Positions 43,816-52,104 of a stretch of 64,000 nucleotides of DNA are shown piece after piece. How positions within the stretch are numbered: the first letter of the stretch is position 1; every line of letters starts with the position of its first letter. A program made the translations under genes and the position numbers. Location of the stretch: assembly GCF_900102375.1 (NCBI RefSeq), contig NZ_FNBO01000007.1:62001-126000 (forward strand). The letters run 5' to 3'. This DNA is from Halorubrum xinjiangense (GTDB taxonomy: Archaea; Halobacteriota; Halobacteria; Halobacteriales; Haloferacaceae). The notes beneath the pieces are model-generated. The model saw only the letters and a list, made by a program, of their open reading frames with translations. It was not told where the DNA came from and did no database searches.

Positions 43816-46800
43816 ATGGCTCAGGCCGGCACCCAGGACCTCACGGAGCAGTTCATCCAGTTCTATCGTAACTACTATCGAGAGGAGATCGGGCAGCTCG
43901 CGCAGCGCTACCCCAACGAGCAGCGCTCGCTGTACGTCTCCTACGACGACCTCTTTCAGTTCGACCGCGACCTCGCCGAGGACTTCCTGAACAAGCCGGA
44001 GCAGATGCGCGAGTACGCCGAGGAGGCGCTGCGACTCTACGACCTCCCTGCCGACGTGAGCCTCGGCCGCGCGCACGTCCGCATCGAAGACCTCCCAGAG
44101 AGCGTCGACATCCGCGGCATCCGCGTCCACGACGACCACATCGGGAAGCTCGTCTCGATCCAGGGAATCGTCCGCAAGGCCACCGACGTGCGGCCGAAGG
44201 TGACCGAGGCCGCATTCGAGTGCCAGCGCTGCGGCACGATGACGTACATCCCGCAGTCCGACGGCGGCTTCCAGGAGCCCCACGAGTGCCAGGGCTGCGA
44301 GCGACAGGGCCCCTTCCGCGTCAACTTCGACCAGTCCGAGTTCGTCGACTCCCAGAAGCTCCGCATCCAGGAATCCCCCGAGGGCCTGCGGGGCGGCGAG
44401 ACCCCCCAGTCGCTCGACGTCGACATCGTCGACGACATCACCGGCGAGGTGAGCCCCGGCGACCACGTCACCTGCGTCGGTGTCCTCCACATCGAGCAGG
44501 TCGAGCAGGGCAACGAGAAGTCCGCGATCTTCGATCTCTACATGGACGGCGTCTCCATCTCCATCGAGGACGAGGAGTTCGAGGACATGGACATCACCGA
44601 GGCGGACAAACGCGACATCATCGAGCTCTCCGAGCGCGACGACATCTACGAGGCGATGGTGGGCTCCATCGCGCCCGCCATCTACGGCTACGAGGAGGAG
44701 AAGCTCGCGATGATCCTCCAGCTGTTCTCCGGCGTCACGAAGCACCTCCCCGACGGCTCGCGGATCCGCGGCGACCTCCACATGCTCCTGATCGGTGACC
44801 CTGGTACCGGAAAATCACAGATGATCAGTTATGTCGAGAATATTGCCCCAAGATCAGTTTATACCTCAGGAAAAGGATCATCTGCTGCGGGGCTCACGGC
44901 CGCGGCCGTCCGCGACGACTTCGGCGACGGCCAGCAGTGGTCGCTCGAGGCCGGTGCGCTCGTCCTCGCGGACAAGGGGATCGCCGCGGTCGACGAGCTG
45001 GACAAGATGGACTGCGTCACCGGCGACACGCTGGTGTCGCTCGCCGACGGTCGTGTCGAGCGCATCGCCGAACTGGCGCGGGAGGCCGCCGCGGATGGCG
45101 ACGTCGAGGAGCTCTCGAACGGCCGCCACATCCGCGACGTCGACCTCGACGTCTGGACGATGGACGAGGACGGGAACTTAGTGGAGCGTCCCGTCTCCGC
45201 AGTCCACGAGTACGACGCGCCGTCGAAGCTGACCCGAGTGACGATGGAGACCGGCGAGTCGCTGACCGCGACCGCCGACCACCCGTTCTTCGTCCTCGAC
45301 GACGGGGAGCGCGTCGAGCGCGAGGCGGCCGCGCTCGACGACGGTGACTGGGTGTACGTCCCCCGAGAGATTCCGACGAAGGCCGCCGACGGCGGAGCGG
45401 TGGCTGCGAGCGGCGGAGCCGGGGCAGCGGCCGAGCCTGTCGACGGCGAGGGAGTCGACGCCGCGATGGCGAGCGTACTCGGATACCTCTCCGGTGACGG
45501 GAACGTCTACTACGACCGGGACCAGGGCGTCTACGGCGTCCGGTTCACCAACACCGACGAGGACCTGCTGGCCGACTTCGAACGCGCGGCGCACGAGGCG
45601 TTCGACGCGGAGCCGACTCGGCCGCCGAGCGAGAAACGCGACGGCGGCGTCGAGACGGTCCGCGTCACCGGGAAAGAGCACGCCGACGCCGTCCTCGACG
45701 CGGGGATGAACCTCGGTCGGTACGACGAGAAGTGCTTCCCGACTCCCGTTTCGACCGGGAGCCGCGCGGCGAAGGCCGCGTTCGTCCGCGCTCTCGCCGA
45801 CAGCGAGGGACACGTCGACGAGTCGGCCGGCAACGTTCGGATAGCGTCTGCGAGCCGAGACCTGCTGAGCGGCACGCGGAACCTCCTCTTAGGGTTCGGC
45901 GTGTCGAGTCAGCTCCAGCGGAGCGAGCGAGACGAGGGCCGCGACGTGTACTACCTCACGGTGACCGACGCGGATTCGCTCGCGGCGTTCCGACGCTTCG
46001 TCGGGTTCACCGCCACCCGAAAGGCGGAGTCGCTCGACCGCGTCGTCGATGCGGCCGACGGCGACCGCACGATTCTCGACGTGATCCCGGACGTCGGCGA
46101 CGCGCTCGCGCGGTCTCGCGAGTCGCTCCGGTTTCACCAGCGCGAGTGCGGACTCAACGCGGGCGCGTATCACGGCTTCGAGAGCGGGGATGCGAACGTC
46201 TCGCTTCACCGCGCCCGCCGAGTGCTCGCGGCGTTCGAGGACAGACTGGAGACGGCCGCGGAGGACCGGGATCGGCTCGACGCGACGCCGACGTGGGAGA
46301 CGCTGTCGAAGCTGCGGCACCGATACCACGTCTCGCAGTCCGAACTCGCGGACGGAACCGGGGTGTCTCAACAGCAGATCTCCCGCGAGTGGGGCGAACG
46401 CGACGAGCTCCGTCGGACGGTGACCGAGCGGCTCCGAGGGATCCTTACCGAAGTCGCGGAGACCGACCTCGACGACCTCCGTGAGTTCGTCCGCGGCGAC
46501 GTGAAGTGGCGCCGCGTCGAGTCGGTCGAGACGGTCCCCCCGGAGTCGACCGAACACCGCGGCGAGGTGCGCCGACAGCGCCTCGCAGACGTCATCGGCG
46601 GGCCGGTCGAGACCGTTAAAGAGCACGCTCGCGACCTGCTCGACCGGGGACCGGTCGGCGAAACGCGATCGGACCTGTCGGCGGCGCTCGACGCCTACGG
46701 TGTCAGTCAGGCGGACGTGGCGTCGCGGCTCGACGTGAGTCAGGCGACTGTGTCGCGGTGGTTGACCGGCGCTATCGAAACCGACCGGCTCGACGACCTG

Positions 46801-47856
46801 CGCGAGGCCGTCGCGGCGGAGGTCGACGCCGTGAAGGCGGAACTGCGGTCGATACTGGCGCGGATCGAGGACGGCGAGCGACCGCGGGTGTACGACCTGA
46901 CCGTTGAGGAGACGCACAACTTCGTCGCGAACGGGCTCGTCGTCCACAACTCCTCCGACCGCTCCGCGATGCACGAGGGGCTCGAACAACAGAAGATCTC
47001 CGTCTCGAAGGCCGGGATCAACGCCACTCTCAAGGCGCGGTGCTCGCTGCTCGGCGCCGCGAACCCGAAGTACGGCCGGTTCGATCAGTACGAGCCGATC
47101 GGCGAGCAGATCGACTTAGAGCCCGCGCTCATCTCGCGGTTCGACCTCATCTTCACGGTGACCGACAGCCCGGACCCGGAACACGACTCCCGGCTGGCGA
47201 AACACATCATCAAGACGAACTACGCCGGCGAGCTCAACACCCAGCGCGAGGAGCTGGCGAGCTCGGAGTTCACCTCGGAGCAGGTTGCGGAGGTGACCGA
47301 GGAGGTCGCGCCGGAGATCGACTCGGAGCTGCTTCGCAAGTACATCGCCCACGCGAAGCGGTCCTGCTTCCCGACGATGACGGAGGAGGCGAAGGAAGTG
47401 ATAGAGGAGTTCTACGTCGACCTGCGCTCGAAGGGCGCCGACGAGGACGCGCCGGTTCCGGTCACCGCCCGGAAGCTAGAGGCGATGGTGCGGCTCTCGG
47501 AGGCGAGCGCGCGGGTACGCCTCTCGGACACCGTCGAGCGCGAGGACGCCGACCGCGCGACGGACATCGTCGAGTCGTGTCTCAAGGACATCGGCGTCGA
47601 CCCCGAGACGGGGCAGTTCGACGCCGACGTAGTCGAGACGGGCACCTCGAAGAGCCAGCGCGACCGCATCAAGAACATCAAGGGGCTCATCGCCGACATC
47701 GAAGAGGAGTACGAGGACGGTGCCCCCGTCGACGAGGTGCTCGACCGCGCGGGCGAGATCGGGATGGACCCGGGGAAAGCGGAACAAGAGATCGAGAAGC
47801 TCCGCACGAAGGGCGAAGTGTACGAGCCCAAGCAGGGCCACCTCCGGACGACGTAG
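43816..47856 (+). CDS. mcm: Replicative DNA helicase MCM, intein-containing
   Basis: 1346 residues including a 646-residue intein, leaving ~700 residues, the normal haloarchaeal MCM length. N-terminal zinc site CQRC...CQGC (residues ~136-161), Walker A GDPGTGKSQ from residue 327, Walker B DELDKMD interrupted by the intein after residue 399, and the sensor/arginine-finger region downstream (LISRFDLIFTV). MCM unwinds DNA at the replication fork. A 93-bp AT-rich tract covers Walker A. The next gene starts directly at its stop. Confidence 0.96.
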   Translation: MAQAGTQDLTEQFIQFYRNYYREEIGQLAQRYPNEQRSLYVSYDDLFQFDRDLAEDFLNKPEQMREYAEEALRLYDLPADVSLGRAHVRIEDLPESVDIRGIRVHDDHIGKLVSIQGIVRKATDVRPKVTEAAFECQRCGTMTYIPQSDGGFQEPHECQGCERQGPFRVNFDQSEFVDSQKLRIQESPEGLRGGETPQSLDVDIVDDITGEVSPGDHVTCVGVLHIEQVEQGNEKSAIFDLYMDGVSISIEDEEFEDMDITEADKRDIIELSERDDIYEAMVGSIAPAIYGYEEEKLAMILQLFSGVTKHLPDGSRIRGDLHMLLIGDPGTGKSQMISYVENIAPRSVYTSGKGSSAAGLTAAAVRDDFGDGQQWSLEAGALVLADKGIAAVDELDKMDCVTGDTLVSLADGRVERIAELAREAAADGDVEELSNGRHIRDVDLDVWTMDEDGNLVERPVSAVHEYDAPSKLTRVTMETGESLTATADHPFFVLDDGERVEREAAALDDGDWVYVPREIPTKAADGGAVAASGGAGAAAEPVDGEGVDAAMASVLGYLSGDGNVYYDRDQGVYGVRFTNTDEDLLADFERAAHEAFDAEPTRPPSEKRDGGVETVRVTGKEHADAVLDAGMNLGRYDEKCFPTPVSTGSRAAKAAFVRALADSEGHVDESAGNVRIASASRDLLSGTRNLLLGFGVSSQLQRSERDEGRDVYYLTVTDADSLAAFRRFVGFTATRKAESLDRVVDAADGDRTILDVIPDVGDALARSRESLRFHQRECGLNAGAYHGFESGDANVSLHRARRVLAAFEDRLETAAEDRDRLDATPTWETLSKLRHRYHVSQSELADGTGVSQQQISREWGERDELRRTVTERLRGILTEVAETDLDDLREFVRGDVKWRRVESVETVPPESTEHRGEVRRQRLADVIGGPVETVKEHARDLLDRGPVGETRSDLSAALDAYGVSQADVASRLDVSQATVSRWLTGAIETDRLDDLREAVAAEVDAVKAELRSILARIEDGERPRVYDLTVEETHNFVANGLVVHNSSDRSAMHEGLEQQKISVSKAGINATLKARCSLLGAANPKYGRFDQYEPIGEQIDLEPALISRFDLIFTVTDSPDPEHDSRLAKHIIKTNYAGELNTQREELASSEFTSEQVAEVTEEVAPEIDSELLRKYIAHAKRSCFPTMTEEAKEVIEEFYVDLRSKGADEDAPVPVTARKLEAMVRLSEASARVRLSDTVEREDADRATDIVESCLKDIGVDPETGQFDADVVETGTSKSQRDRIKNIKGLIADIEEEYEDGAPVDEVLDRAGEIGMDPGKAEQEIEKLRTKGEVYEPKQGHLRTT
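44794..44886 (+). other. AT-rich tract over the MCM Walker A region
   Basis: 93 bases at about 44% GC (counted) in a gene whose surroundings are near 65-70%. Codons here are TCA, AAA, TAT, AAT, ATT and even AGA, unlike the flanks, and the boundaries are abrupt. The reading frame and protein motif are intact, so this looks like DNA from a lower-GC relative inserted by recombination. Confidence 0.85.
45013..46950 (+). other. MCM intein with LAGLIDADG-type endonuclease
   Basis: 646 codons from Cys (CVTGDTLVSLADGR) to Asn (LTVEETHNFVANGLVVHN), followed by Ser as +1 residue. Block B is TADHPFFV. Two dodecapeptide endonuclease motifs are VLGYLSGDGNV and FVRALADSEGHV, each with an acidic residue, so the endonuclease may be active. 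Between endonuclease and C-terminal splicing blocks lie two helix-turn-helix segments (SELADGTGVSQQQIS and QADVASRLDVSQATVSRWL). It sits in Walker B between DELDKMD and SSDRSAM, and splicing restores it. Confidence 0.95.
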
Positions 47857-48156
47857 ATGGACCGGATCTCCGCGATACGGAACGTCGAGGACGCGCTCCG
47901 CGAGTTCGAGAACGGCGAGGCGGACCTCGCGGCCACGGAGCGGCGCGTCGCGGCCGTACTCCGGACCTACGCCACCGAGTTCGACGGCGACGACGACGTG
48001 TACCGCGCGGTCGGCGACGACCCCGTCGACGGCACGGTCGTCGTCGCGCCCTCGGAACCGGCCGCGCGCGACCGCGTCCTCGCGGCGAGCGACGTCGAGG
48101 GGGAGGGGAGTCCGGACGCCAGCGACGGTCCCGCGTTCGACGTCGAGCGGTTCTGA
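47857..48156 (+). CDS. Haloarchaeal protein of unknown function, MCM-linked
   Basis: 99 residues. Helical N-terminus (ISAIRNVEDALREFENGEAD), then RRVAAVLRTYATEF and a β-like VVVAPSEPAARDRVL, acidic end. Starts on the base after the MCM stop (TAG-ATG), so it is translated from the same mRNA. I recall this small protein next to mcm in many haloarchaea (DUF7854-like naming), but no activity is known. Confidence 0.78.
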   Translation: MDRISAIRNVEDALREFENGEADLAATERRVAAVLRTYATEFDGDDDVYRAVGDDPVDGTVVVAPSEPAARDRVLAASDVEGEGSPDASDGPAFDVERF

Positions 48157-48261
48157 CCAGCGAGGTCGGAGCCGCGTGCGGAGGGCGGTCCGCCGTCGCT
48201 GAAGGCGACTGAAACGTTCCGGTCCGGAACGGATAAGTTCCGAAATCGACCACCGGCTGGC

Positions 48262-48600
48262 GTGTTGCTGGTCGTAACGTATTCGGCGGCCGCCCGGACC
48301 GGCCTCCGAAACCTGTGTCGTCGCCACGAGTCGGTCGTCGCCCGGCGGTTCGGCCGCGCCGCGCTGTTGGACGAGACGGTGTACGCCGCGTTCCTCGCGC
48401 TGCGGCTGCGGGAGTCTCACGGCGGGGACATCCAAATAGAGCGCACCGAGCCGTTCAACGAGTTCGTCGCCGTCGACGACGAGGTCAGAGCGGCCGCCGC
48501 GGCCTACGCGGACCGGTCCGCGAAGTCGACGCCGTACGCCGCCTTCGCGGCGGGGACGGAGCATCCGGACCCGGACGCCATGCGCGGCCGAGAGCTGTGA
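48262..48600 (+). CDS. Haloarchaeal protein of unknown function
   Basis: 112 residues with GTG start. LLVVTYSAAARTGLRNLCRR at the start suggests a small α/β fold. A C-terminal Ala-rich helix follows. It ends with GTGA overlapping the next gene. Second of the uncharacterised MCM-linked series (from memory, DUF7855-like). Confidence 0.72.
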   Translation: MLLVVTYSAAARTGLRNLCRRHESVVARRFGRAALLDETVYAAFLALRLRESHGGDIQIERTEPFNEFVAVDDEVRAAAAAYADRSAKSTPYAAFAAGTEHPDPDAMRGREL

Positions 48601-49400
48601 ACGGGGCGAGGTCGACGTCGTCCGGATCGGACAGCGAGGAGACCGAGGAGACCGGTATTTCCGTCGAAGCGACTCCGGAACCGAGCGCGGTACTCGGACG
48701 GCTCCCCGCCGAGGCTGAGCTACAACGGCAGCTCGCGGCGGCCGCGCGCTCGCGGGGGCGGACCGCGTCGGTCGCGCCCGAGATCGACGAGATCGAGGCT
48801 GAACTCGCGGCGATCGAGATCGAACCGGTCGACCTGACCGAAGCGCGGCGACGGGTCGCCGAGACGACCGGCGAGATCGAGCGGCTAAAGGAGCGAGTCG
48901 CGGCGCTGCGCGGCGACGCCCGGGCGCGCCGCGCGGTCGACGCCGAGGCGGACGAGACGCTCGACGACCTAGAGGCGGCGGCCGCGGAGCTGTCGGCCGC
49001 ACAGACGGAGGCGATCGCGGCCGAGCAGGCGCTCGAACGCGCACGAGCCGAGGCGGCGCGGAACCGCGACGAGCGGCGGCGGCGACTGCGGCTCCGCGAC
49101 CGGCTCCGGAACCGGCGGCGGACCGCCCGCCGGGAGCTCGCGAGATCGGTGTACCCGGCGTTTCGGCGCGCGCTCGCGGCCGTGCCGGGCGGCGATCCGG
49201 GCGCGGCCGGCGCGGAGCCGAGCGCCTACGACGGGGACCCCGTCGCGGCGTCGCTCGCGGCGGTCAGGGTCGCGGCGCTCGACGGTCCCGTCGAGCTACG
49301 CGGCGACGCGGCACGGCGGATCGAGGCGTCGGAGCGGAGCGCGAGATCGCTGCTTCGGGCGGCCGACGTTCGCCTCCGAGGCGCGCCCGGCGGAGTCTGA
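48597..49400 (+). CDS. Coiled-coil protein of the MCM-MinD cluster
   Basis: 267 residues. Ser/Glu-rich start, then a long predicted coiled coil (residues ~60-185) with LTEARRRVAETTGEIERLKE and EAEAA-type repeats, Arg-rich in the later half (RDERRRRLRLRDRLRNRRR). The GTG start overlaps the previous stop by four bases. Could be a structural or partner protein for the downstream ATPase. Confidence 0.75.
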   Translation: MNGARSTSSGSDSEETEETGISVEATPEPSAVLGRLPAEAELQRQLAAAARSRGRTASVAPEIDEIEAELAAIEIEPVDLTEARRRVAETTGEIERLKERVAALRGDARARRAVDAEADETLDDLEAAAAELSAAQTEAIAAEQALERARAEAARNRDERRRRLRLRDRLRNRRRTARRELARSVYPAFRRALAAVPGGDPGAAGAEPSAYDGDPVAASLAAVRVAALDGPVELRGDAARRIEASERSARSLLRAADVRLRGAPGGV

Positions 49401-49430
49401 GCCGGCGGCGGCCGCGAGTTCGCCCCGACG

Positions 49431-49436
49431 TTTAAA
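49431..49436 (+). promoter_or_regulatory. TATA box upstream of the 49460 gene
   Basis: TTTAAA 24-29 bases before the ATG at 49460, which fits a leaderless start and argues against the ATG at 49436 that overlaps the box. Confidence 0.5.
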
Positions 49437-49459
49437 TGCGATTCCGCGGGACCCGGCGC

Positions 49460-50296
49460 ATGGAACTCGACTGGTCCGTCGACCGCGAGGGGGACGCGTC
49501 GCTCGTCGGCTTTCGGGTGCGCAACGACGGGGCGGTCCCGCGGCGCGTCAGGATCGAGAGCCGGCTGGATGGCCCGCTGCTTCCGCCGCGGCGCGGCGGC
49601 GTTCCCGAGTCCGGATGGGACGCCGCGGGCGTGACCGCGGTGATCGACCCGGGCGAACGCGCGGCGTTCGGGTTCTCGGCGCTCGCGGACCCCGTCGAGC
49701 CCCCGGTCGAAATCACGAGCGTCGAGCCCGTCACGGCGGACGCGGACGACCGGGGCGCGGCGACCGAAGGCGGAGCAGACCTCGCGCGGGCGGCGGTGCG
49801 GGACCTCGAATCGCATCGCCCCCCGCGGCGCGCGGTCGCCGGAGCAGGAGCGGTCGACGGCGTCAACGAGGAGGGCGGCGACGCTGAAGCGGTCGATGGC
49901 GGGGAGGCCGACAGCGGCGGGAGAGCGATCGACCGAGATGAGGACGACGGGGGCGGCGGCGAGAGAGCGACAGACGGCAATGATGACGGCGGAGACGCGA
50001 ATCGGTCTGAGACTCCCGAATCGTCGCCGAGCGCGGCGGGCCCCGACGAGATCGACGCGTGGTTCGCGGCCGTCGAGGCGCGGATCGACCGGGCGGAGCG
50101 ACTCGACGACGCCGACCTTGCGACGGCGACGGGGGTCGTTGAGGAGGTCGGTGGGCTCGACGCAGTCAGGGAACTCGACGAGCGCTTCGCGGCCGACGCC
50201 GAACGCCTGCGGGCGGTCCGCGACCGGGCCGCGGCGCTCGCGGAACGCGCCGAGGAGAGCGAGGTCCCGACCAAGGCGTTGGAGGGGCTGACGTGA
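49460..50296 (+). CDS. β-domain protein with acidic linker, MCM-MinD cluster
   Basis: 278 residues. The N-terminal ~90 residues look β-rich and immunoglobulin-like (VGFRVRNDGAVPRRVRIES; AAFGFSALADPVEPPVEI). Then ~100 residues of Gly/Asp/Glu-rich disordered linker, and a C-terminal helical part (ARIDRAERLDDADLATATGV; ERLRAVRDRAAALAERAEE). Overlaps the ATPase gene by GTGA. Function unknown; may recruit the ATPase. Confidence 0.72.
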   Translation: MELDWSVDREGDASLVGFRVRNDGAVPRRVRIESRLDGPLLPPRRGGVPESGWDAAGVTAVIDPGERAAFGFSALADPVEPPVEITSVEPVTADADDRGAATEGGADLARAAVRDLESHRPPRRAVAGAGAVDGVNEEGGDAEAVDGGEADSGGRAIDRDEDDGGGGERATDGNDDGGDANRSETPESSPSAAGPDEIDAWFAAVEARIDRAERLDDADLATATGVVEEVGGLDAVRELDERFAADAERLRAVRDRAAALAERAEESEVPTKALEGLT

Positions 50297-50943
50297 TCCT
50301 CGCGGTCGCGGGCGGGAAGGGCGGCGTGGGGAAGACGACGCTCGCGTACAACGTCGCCGCCGAACTCGACGGCGTCGTCGTCGACGCCGACCTCGGGATG
50401 GCGGACCTACCGGACGGCCGCGGCCCCGACCTCCACGACGTCCTCGCCGGCGCGGCGGACCCGGTGGAGACGGTCCGTCCCGGTCCGGTCGACATCGTCC
50501 CGTGCGGCCGGACGCTGGCCGGCGCGCGGGCGGCCGACCTGACGCGGCTGGAGGGCGCGGTCGCCGCGGTCGAGCGCGAGTTCGGGACCGTCGTCCTCGA
50601 CTGTCCGGCGGGCCGCCGCGCCGACGCCGGCGTGCCGCTGGCGGTCGCGGACGCCTGCCTCCTCGTCGTCTCGCCCCGGGCGTTCGCGCTGGCCGACGCG
50701 ATCCGCACCCGGGAGCTCGCCCGCGAACTCGACGCCGGGCTAGTCGGCTGCGCGGTCAACCGCGTGACCGAACCGTCGCCGGCCGAGGCGATCGGCGACG
50801 CGCTCGGCGCGCCGGTCGAGGTGGTCCCGGCCGATCCGCGCGTCGGCCGGTCCGTTGCGGCGGAGCGGCCGGTCGCGGACGCCGCGCCCGACAGCGAGGC
50901 CGCGGCGGCGGTCCAAGCGCTCGCGCGGCGCGTTCCGGAGTGA
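50293..50943 (+). CDS. MinD/ParA-type P-loop ATPase (MinD1-like)
   Basis: 216 residues. Deviant Walker A GGKGGVGKTTLAYN near residue 8, DADLGMADLP (switch region) near residue 32, and FGTVVLDCPAGRRADAG (Walker B) near residue 98. Short C-terminus without an obvious amphipathic membrane helix. Haloferax volcanii has four MinD homologues, and from memory minD1 lies a few genes after mcm, the same arrangement as here, so this is probably its orthologue. Role in cell positioning or division unproven for this one. Confidence 0.88.
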   Translation: MILAVAGGKGGVGKTTLAYNVAAELDGVVVDADLGMADLPDGRGPDLHDVLAGAADPVETVRPGPVDIVPCGRTLAGARAADLTRLEGAVAAVEREFGTVVLDCPAGRRADAGVPLAVADACLLVVSPRAFALADAIRTRELARELDAGLVGCAVNRVTEPSPAEAIGDALGAPVEVVPADPRVGRSVAAERPVADAAPDSEAAAAVQALARRVPE

Positions 50944-51037
50944 AGAACGAGACGGGTGAGATATGCGATACAGGGAAAACGGGAACGCCGTCGCGACACC
51001 GCGTCTTTTTACTCGCGCCGAGCCGTCGGCGAGAGCG

Positions 51038-51736
51038 ATGATCACGGTCGCGCTCGTCCTCGGTGTCGCCGTCGTCGCCGCGCTCGCAGTCGCCGTCGGG
51101 CCGCTGTACGCGGCCGACCGCTTCCGCGACCTGCGGGAGCCGACGGACGCGGAGCGCGCGCAGATCGCGGCGCTGGCGGACCCCGGCGGACTCGACGTCG
51201 ACCGGATCGCGATCGAGTCCGTCGGGGGGGAGGGTGACGGCGCCAGCGACGGAGAGAAACCGGGACCGGCCGGCCCCGCGGATGTTTCAGTCCGGGGGCC
51301 GCCCGGCCGCCGGGTGCTGTTCCTCACGGCGGACGTGCTCACCGACCTCGACGAGGACGTGGCGGTCGGGCTGTTCGCCGCGGAGGCCGGGCGGGTCGAG
51401 ACGTACTACGCCGAGTTCCGCGCTGTCGCCGTCGGCGCCGTGCTGGCGGCGCTGGCGGCGGTCGTCACGGCCCTCGTCCCGTTCGAGTCCGGCTTCGCCG
51501 CCGTCGTCGCCGTGGGGCTCGCTTCCTTCTGGGCCGGCCGACGGGTCCAGTACGCGGCGGACGCCCGCGCCGCGGAAGCGGTCGGCGCCGGCCGCGTCGC
51601 CGACGCGTTCGAGCGCGTCGCGGAGCGCCGCGGGGTCGAACCGGCGACGGGCGACTGGTCGACGTGGTTCGAGGTCCAACCGCCGCTCGGGGATCGGATC
51701 ACGCGGCTCCGCGACGAGGCGGCGGACGACGAGTAG
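51038..51736 (+). CDS. M48/HtpX-like membrane protein without the zinc motif
   Basis: 232 residues. N-terminal helix (VALVLGVAVVAALAVAVG), a region like M48 proteases (RRVLFLTADVLTDLDEDVAVGLFAAEAGRVETYY), two internal helices (residues ~127-165), and a C-terminal PPLGDRITRLRDEA that matches the end of HtpX-type proteases. Where M48 members have HExxH, this reads AEAGR, so both zinc His are lost while Glu remains. Likely catalytically dead. Start at 51038, about 30 bases after a CTTTTTA box. Follows the MinD-like gene by 94 bases. Confidence 0.7.
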   Translation: MITVALVLGVAVVAALAVAVGPLYAADRFRDLREPTDAERAQIAALADPGGLDVDRIAIESVGGEGDGASDGEKPGPAGPADVSVRGPPGRRVLFLTADVLTDLDEDVAVGLFAAEAGRVETYYAEFRAVAVGAVLAALAAVVTALVPFESGFAAVVAVGLASFWAGRRVQYAADARAAEAVGAGRVADAFERVAERRGVEPATGDWSTWFEVQPPLGDRITRLRDEAADDE

Positions 51737-51798: not shown

Positions 51799-52104
51799 TC
51801 AGTTCTCTGAGCGCCGAGCGACGGCGGTCTCGGGGCCGACGCGGACGGCGTAGCCCGCGACGGTGAGCGAGACGTCCACGTCGGCGTCGGCCCGACCCGC
51901 GACGAGCGCGTTCAGCGCGTCGAGGTCGACGTGTTCGTTCAGTATCACGCCCTCCTCGGGCAGGTCGGTCGAGTCGACGCCCGCGAGGTCCGCGATCGCC
52001 TCAACGACCGCGAGGCTGGGACTGGGACCCGCGTCGCCGTGCGGGACGCGAGCCGTCTCGGCTACCGAACCGGAGTCGCTCGATTCAGCCGTTAAGCTGC
52101 TCAT
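51799..52104 (-). CDS. HalOD1 output-domain protein
   Basis: 101 residues. Contains the HalOD1 pattern (SLAVVEAIADLAGVDSTDLP near residue 29; LDALNALVAG; VSLTVAGYAVRVG). Such domains follow response-regulator or sensor proteins in haloarchaea and are also found alone. TTTATATA on the minus strand (about 52127-52135) stands ~25 bases before the ATG, a leaderless start. Confidence 0.85.
   Translation of the reverse strand: MSSLTAESSDSGSVAETARVPHGDAGPSPSLAVVEAIADLAGVDSTDLPEEGVILNEHVDLDALNALVAGRADADVDVSLTVAGYAVRVGPETAVARRSEN

Follow-up and report, generated by a model that had tools for sequence, protein, structure and literature searches.

A conserved DUF7857–MinD1 gene pair near mcm in haloarchaea, a candidate accessory MinD/ParA-family switch with its own adaptor

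The locus examined here lies at positions 47857–51736 of a 64,000-nucleotide stretch of Halorubrum xinjiangense DNA (the window, to whose full length all coordinates refer), where six open reading frames on the + strand follow mcm, the gene of the replicative helicase. A first-pass annotation of this DNA had proposed that the six form one undescribed system, in which a MinD/ParA ATPase works with a coiled-coil protein, a flexible adaptor and a membrane partner in a complex tied to replication. The genes and their protein types were borne out by the open reading frame positions, by Pfam matches, by the structural model of DUF7857 and by the missing HExxH motif of the last gene product, whereas the single system was not: the array is predicted to consist of three two-gene units plus a bystander, and one of these units, DUF7857 with the ATPase gene MinD1, may encode a switch and its partner. 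The features of the locus are as follows.

43816–47856, + strand: mcm, replicative helicase gene, intein-bearing; upstream neighbour, outside the pairs; the haloarchaeal MCM C-terminal query matches 145/145 class genomes.
47857–48156, + strand: DUF7854 (PF25252), 99 residues; expectation value (E) 2.5e-36; start abuts the mcm stop.
48262–48600, + strand: DUF7855 (PF25253), 112 residues, GTG start; E 1.7e-55; model with a predicted local distance difference test score (pLDDT) of 96.
48597–49400, + strand: DUF7856 (PF25254), likely coiled coil, GTG start; E 7.6e-52.
49431–49437, + strand: TATA box TTTAAAT, predicted leaderless promoter of DUF7857–MinD1, 29 nucleotides upstream of the DUF7857 ATG.
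49460–50296, + strand: DUF7857 (PF25256), 278 residues, the MinD1 partner gene; E 3.6e-33.
49460–49735, + strand: DUF7857 beta-sandwich domain, residues 1–92; AlphaFold2 pLDDT ~97.
49787–49834, + strand: DUF7857 helix plus RPPRRAV motif, residues 110–125, candidate MinD1-binding element; motif absent in 4/4 genomes of a MinD1-less genus.
50042–50290, + strand: DUF7857 C-terminal helical domain, residues 195–277, candidate link to DUF7855/DUF7856; pLDDT ~93.
50293–50943, + strand: MinD1, 216-residue MinD/ParA-type ATPase, GTG start; overlaps the DUF7857 stop by 4 nucleotides; deviant Walker A GGKGGVGKT.
51041–51736, + strand: M48-like membrane pseudoprotease, HExxH absent; adjoins MinD1 only in Halorubrum and lies outside the conserved set.

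All four DUF assignments are far over the Pfam cut-off, the fifth frame is a MinD/ParA ATPase and the sixth resembles M48 at sub-cut-off level only. Genus-mates of the window genome carry the same locus. The junctions are as the annotation had described them, with the TAG of mcm and the ATG of DUF7854 abutting at 47854–47859 and GTGA overlaps joining DUF7855 to DUF7856 (48597–48600) and DUF7857 to MinD1 (50293–50296). The remaining gaps measure 105 nucleotides between DUF7854 and DUF7855, 59 between DUF7856 and DUF7857 and, if the start at 51041 is correct, 97 between MinD1 and the M48-like gene.

To follow the array beyond this genome, 120 loci were fetched and gene order was scored with profile hidden Markov models (HMMs) made from them, using a class sample of 145 genomes in 58 genera and a phylum sample of 197 genomes. 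DUF7857 and MinD1 adjoin in 79/79 genomes having both (40 genera), as do DUF7855 and DUF7856 in 74/74 genomes (32 genera). DUF7854 adjoins mcm in 71/74 genomes and, of 70 junctions scored, 55 have its start at −10 to +3 relative to the stop of mcm; it is the only gene of the array that follows mcm itself. A 4-nucleotide stop-start overlap, indicating coupling far above chance, joins DUF7857 to MinD1 in 73/81 loci and DUF7855 to DUF7856 in 53/68; between the units there is no overlap rule and the median gaps are 84 and 25 nucleotides. The array also comes apart along these lines. Genomes G013, G065 and G097 have DUF7857–MinD1 relocated together while the first three genes remain with mcm, all three units are apart in G141, and in these four broken arrays, as in that of G135, DUF7857 and MinD1 move as a pair.

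The positions of likely promoters follow the same division. Upstream of DUF7857 an AT-rich box occupies the archaeal TATA position in 65/80 loci, and one precedes DUF7855 in 48/76 (the latter box being weak in this window), against 2/71 for DUF7854, 1/35 for DUF7856, 0/81 for MinD1 and 3.4–4.1% at control positions. Because the array breaks at these points, the overlaps fall within the pairs and two of the pairs have promoter boxes of their own, the array is best described as three predicted transcription units, mcm-DUF7854, DUF7855-DUF7856 and DUF7857-MinD1, which come apart in nature. The DUF7857 promoter has the consensus gTTTAaatccGA...CGcGgCcA, ahead of a leaderless ATG. A CGA...CGCGGCCA element, at 49430–49452 in the window, lies between the TATA box and this ATG and is conserved over most families. 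Searched for across the whole genome, the promoter element turned up 18 times, with 2 hits in the control, and among four promoter-like sites that were read an open reading frame start lay 20–40 nucleotides downstream only at DUF7857. As related sites occur elsewhere in the genome, the element may be a common core promoter and not a regulon or special signal.

In MinD1 the Walker A sequence GGKGGVGK[ST] varies little or not at all among 40 orthologues and conforms to the signature-lysine pattern xKGGxGK[ST], and the MinD-type switch residues are intact. Its nearest solved structures are the archaeal MinD proteins 1hyq, 1g3q and 1ion (E about 3e-36 or lower), followed by FleN/FlhG, and PDB profile matches place it nearer to archaeal MinD than to ParA or Mrp. 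Against TIGR01969 (minD_arch) it scores 135.4 bits, below the cut-off of 201.75, and by this measure it is a divergent relative of that family and not filed as a member. The protein has ~216–240 residues, few of which lie beyond the last ATPase helix, with tails that vary among genera; no appended C-terminal tail like the membrane-targeting helix of MinD was seen in the MinD1 sequences, and no MinE-like gene is annotated near MinD1. The sole DUF7857 of the window genome adjoins MinD1 and not the other MinD paralogues, one of which lies in a 552-residue frame. The function of Haloferax volcanii MinD1 is not known, and no archaeal MinD has a clear MinE-like partner that is recognised so far (PMC11621097); the functions of MinD1–3 were listed as undescribed before PMC11588486 and PMC11621097 dealt with MinD2.

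DUF7857 is found in 104/145 class genomes and is single-copy except in two genomes with two copies, each of which adjoins a MinD1; among the genomes examined, MinD1 always occurs together with DUF7857. The window protein scores 115.2 bits against the Pfam gathering cut-off of 27 and belongs to the family. In its model the beta domain and the C-terminal helices are confidently predicted, and the acidic linker is disordered. The beta domain matches Ig-like, CBM2 and mu-homology-type folds with Z ≤7.9, and no confident PDB homologue of DUF7857 was found, the best matches (E 2e-3; VIA best Z 7.9) being in the common-fold range. A motif with the consensus LRDLGDPRPPRDAV follows the beta domain and accompanies MinD1, the segment in MinD1-partnered proteins reading aaLRdLGDpRPPRDAVp. 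Genus g32 retains DUF7854 to DUF7857 and is alone among the genera in having DUF7857 while lacking MinD1; in 4/4 of its genomes the motif segment is gone and the beta domain runs directly into the C-terminal domain. Motif presence was judged from printed sequences plus the HMM. Five MinD1-partnered proteins were scored motif-less through a misplaced cut point, the motif being visible in their sequences; in a further MinD1-partnered protein (L052), missed by the motif HMM, APPRDAVP can be read by eye. Three proteins of family f4 score low. The WPPR...GWD loop of DUF7857, also considered as a MinD1 site, is largely kept in genomes without MinD1 and hence is not MinD1-specific.

The other end of DUF7857 varies with DUF7856. 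Of 11 proteins from genomes that lack DUF7856, 10 have no C-terminal domain, and the short proteins of such genomes end in the motif segment or in a diverged version of it; g32, which has DUF7856, keeps the domain. Because the motif is lost in g32 and the C-terminal domain is lost where DUF7856 is missing, DUF7857 looks like a two-sided adaptor, with one segment facing MinD1 and one domain facing DUF7855/DUF7856. Natural variants of DUF7857 lend evidence to the notion that the ATPase has an adaptor. One may tentatively go further and regard DUF7857 as a new class of obligate MinD partner, in which the helix-RPPRDAV element would dock on MinD and a detachable C-terminal domain on the coiled-coil pair, giving one switch interchangeable outputs according to context.

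DUF7855 is modeled as a compact alpha/beta protein with a ferredoxin-like core, and no confident PDB homologue was found for it (best E 2e-2; Z 7.8; common-fold range). DUF7856 has weak Rad50/SMC/MukB-type coiled-coil matches, and scans against defence and phage libraries returned coiled-coil noise and a general ParA match only.

The M48-like protein had been proposed as the membrane partner of the ATPase and was rejected in that role, as it adjoins MinD1 only in genus g1 (Halorubrum) and its relatives elsewhere in the family do not. It reaches 13.6 bits against a cut-off of 20.3, HExxH is absent from it and from all relatives examined, and it does not classify as an M48 peptidase. These proteins apparently form a haloarchaeal family of membrane pseudoproteases. 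Between this gene and pheS, at 51799–52104 on the − strand, the window encodes a HalOD1-domain protein with a sub-cut-off likeness to the disk-determining factor DdfA (40 bits vs 70).

That the order would extend beyond Halorubrum was a prediction of the annotation, and it held: mcm-DUF7854-DUF7855-DUF7856-DUF7857-MinD1 was seen in seven haloarchaeal families (f1, f2, f3, f6, f7, f8 and f10), including the named genome Halomicroarcula sp. SYNS111 (locus L150), the one useful named locus from a broad contig scan whose too general pattern returned mostly bacterial MinD/ParA genes. For Haloferax, to which the annotation had attributed the same order, H. volcanii does have DUF7855 and DUF7857 (it was the control genome in both searches), and its minD1 (HVO_0225) is numbered next to a TFB gene (HVO_0226), the kind of gene that comes after MinD1 in many other genera. 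This proximity is taken from the numbering of locus tags; if the tags follow the order, DUF7857 would be HVO_0224. DUF7855 occurs in 92/145 class genomes and 35/58 genera, and in none of the other genomes of the phylum sample. In 26 loci of families f1, f3, f6, f7, f8 and f10 the array is accompanied by a DUF7504 gene (PF24336, ~200 residues), absent in Halorubrum and usually found between DUF7854 and DUF7855 (e.g. L028, L025, L113 and L119). No tRNA genes were found in the DUF7854–DUF7855 gap of long-gap loci, and in other genera the DUF7504 gene fills this gap. At locus L085 (genome G086) a DUF7855 fragment lies between mcm and a full copy ~8 kb on, a trace of duplication or insertion.

If rearrangement were slow, three unrelated two-gene units could also be held in order with cooperation only within each unit. 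The downstream genes speak for this, since TFB, DUF7858, a degenerate MinD-like gene and a HIT gene are likewise conserved in order, and so do the separateness of the units and distance correlations that single out no pair. All five genes from DUF7854 to MinD1 are, on the other hand, kept in 68 sampled genomes, and the C-terminal domain of DUF7857 tracks the presence of DUF7856; we regard a neighborhood without joint function as unlikely. The convergent TFB-like gene after MinD1 was recognised by eye in several other genera. The degenerate MinD-like gene is found downstream of MinD1 in many genera and is probably a pseudo-ATPase; at L053 (6344–7096, − strand) and similar loci it has the P-loop GGAGTTR for KGGVGKT and faces DUF7858 (PF25257).

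The neighborhood of mcm also invites the view that MinD1 is a chromosomal ParA which, with DUF7855–DUF7857, positions origins or replisomes, the linkage to mcm reflecting joint function. MinD1 lies ≤4.5 kb from mcm in 59/78 genomes (27 genera), DUF7854 is coupled to mcm in most genomes, and the weak coiled-coil matches of DUF7856 are to proteins of the SMC, Rad50 and MukB type. Yet mcm is separable from the pairs, which in many genomes lie apart from it with their own promoters; the set is missing from ~30% of genomes (DUF7857 from 41/145, with mcm in 145/145); and the nearest structures are those of MinD, not ParA. Deletion of minD1–4 in H. volcanii left growth and division unaffected (PMC11588486). 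A tie to replication, as first proposed, is therefore improbable. The mcm gene of the window itself (43816–47856) carries a large intein near the Walker B region.

A second genomic context, here called type B, bears on what the pair might serve. One MinD1 clade stands apart, with 12 tips and a support of 0.99, and pairs with short DUF7857 proteins. Families f3, f4 and f7 each or together supply several genera with the type-B context, at loci that include those of f3g39 (L080, L082) and f4 (e.g. L094, L107) and the second copies in G058 and G140. Around the pair, in varying mix, are an ATPase in which MinD is fused to DUF7125, polytopic membrane proteins that weakly match TrkA_C, an ATPase resembling HerA, and a DUF7382 protein with a single helix; this hints that the type-B pair serves a membrane or surface machine, itself undescribed. 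The cluster also occurs at L084, L101, L104 and L117, and at L095 and L102 members of the type-B clade adjoin mcm. Taken with FleN/FlhG among the nearest solved relatives, the context raises the thought that MinD1 acts like FleN/FlhG or CpaE as the regulator of a machine at the surface or membrane, the mcm-linked copy doing the same for an unlinked machine. The proteins of the type-B machine do not adjoin the mcm-linked copy, and we find this account rather doubtful.

The module is most likely a dispensable switch and not a replication complex, and we see about an even chance that MinD1 and DUF7857 form an accessory MinD/ParA-family switch and its dedicated adaptor, which a leaderless transcript of their own, covering the two genes, would encode. 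The preference for an accessory switch follows from the H. volcanii deletion without an effect on growth or division and from the motility data, in which the quadruple minD mutant swims like the minD2/4 mutant (PMC11621097). In such a mechanism the ATP-bound MinD1 dimer would bind the helix and RPPRDAV segment after the DUF7857 beta domain, and the beta domain would hold a cargo or site that is not MinD1-specific. Where DUF7855–DUF7856 are present, the linker and C-terminal helices of DUF7857 would couple the switch to the coiled-coil pair. The module would thereby position or gate some non-essential cargo of the cell surface or the cytoskeleton, as CetZ1, archaella and chemosensory arrays are served by MinD2 and MinD4; it would have no action in replication, and mcm is a frequent neighbor.

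Several observations weigh against this account of an accessory switch and its adaptor. The motif correlation is a single loss event (g32), the correlation of the C-terminal domain comprises few independent events, with the short proteins largely in the one type-B clade, and 12 proteins from DUF7856-containing genomes have no recognised C-terminal domain. The distance-matrix correlation is unspecific, as neighbors that are not partners correlate equally, and the published motility data, under the conditions used, show no added role for minD1.

The closest known system is MinD2 with HVO_0596 in H. volcanii (PMC11588486), where a haloarchaeal MinD ATPase likewise shares its operon with a partner gene, conserved over haloarchaea; the partner is small and AlphaFold 3 points to a possible interaction (PMC11588486). 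The two differ in that HVO_0596 is downstream of minD2 whereas DUF7857 is upstream of MinD1, and in that motility and shape phenotypes are reported for MinD2 and none for MinD1. MinD4 of H. volcanii is of the same ATPase family and the same organisms, and is described as oscillating and placing motility arrays (Nussbaum 2020, as cited in PMC11621097), but MinD1 is short and has no C-terminal extension. With bacterial MinD-MinE-MinC it shares the deviant Walker A of the MinD branch; unlike there, no MinE or MinC gene is annotated at the MinD1 locus, no appended membrane-targeting helix was seen and the H. volcanii deletion points to no division role (PMC11588486). The type-B context resembles that of machine-associated MinD proteins such as FleN/FlhG and the CpaE type, but no flagellar, FlhF or Tad gene adjoins DUF7857–MinD1. 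No description of the DUF7854–MinD1 set was found in the literature searched, so that the annotation's word "undescribed" stands for the conserved set, while its "system" does not extend to all six genes.

For the study of haloarchaeal MinD proteins, the appearance of six genes as one array, which would otherwise misdirect deletion studies, gives way to three units and a bystander. For MinD1, an ATPase without known function, there is now a partner inherited strictly along with it, a segment predicted to bind it and a lineage that is a natural knockout, and so it becomes testable.

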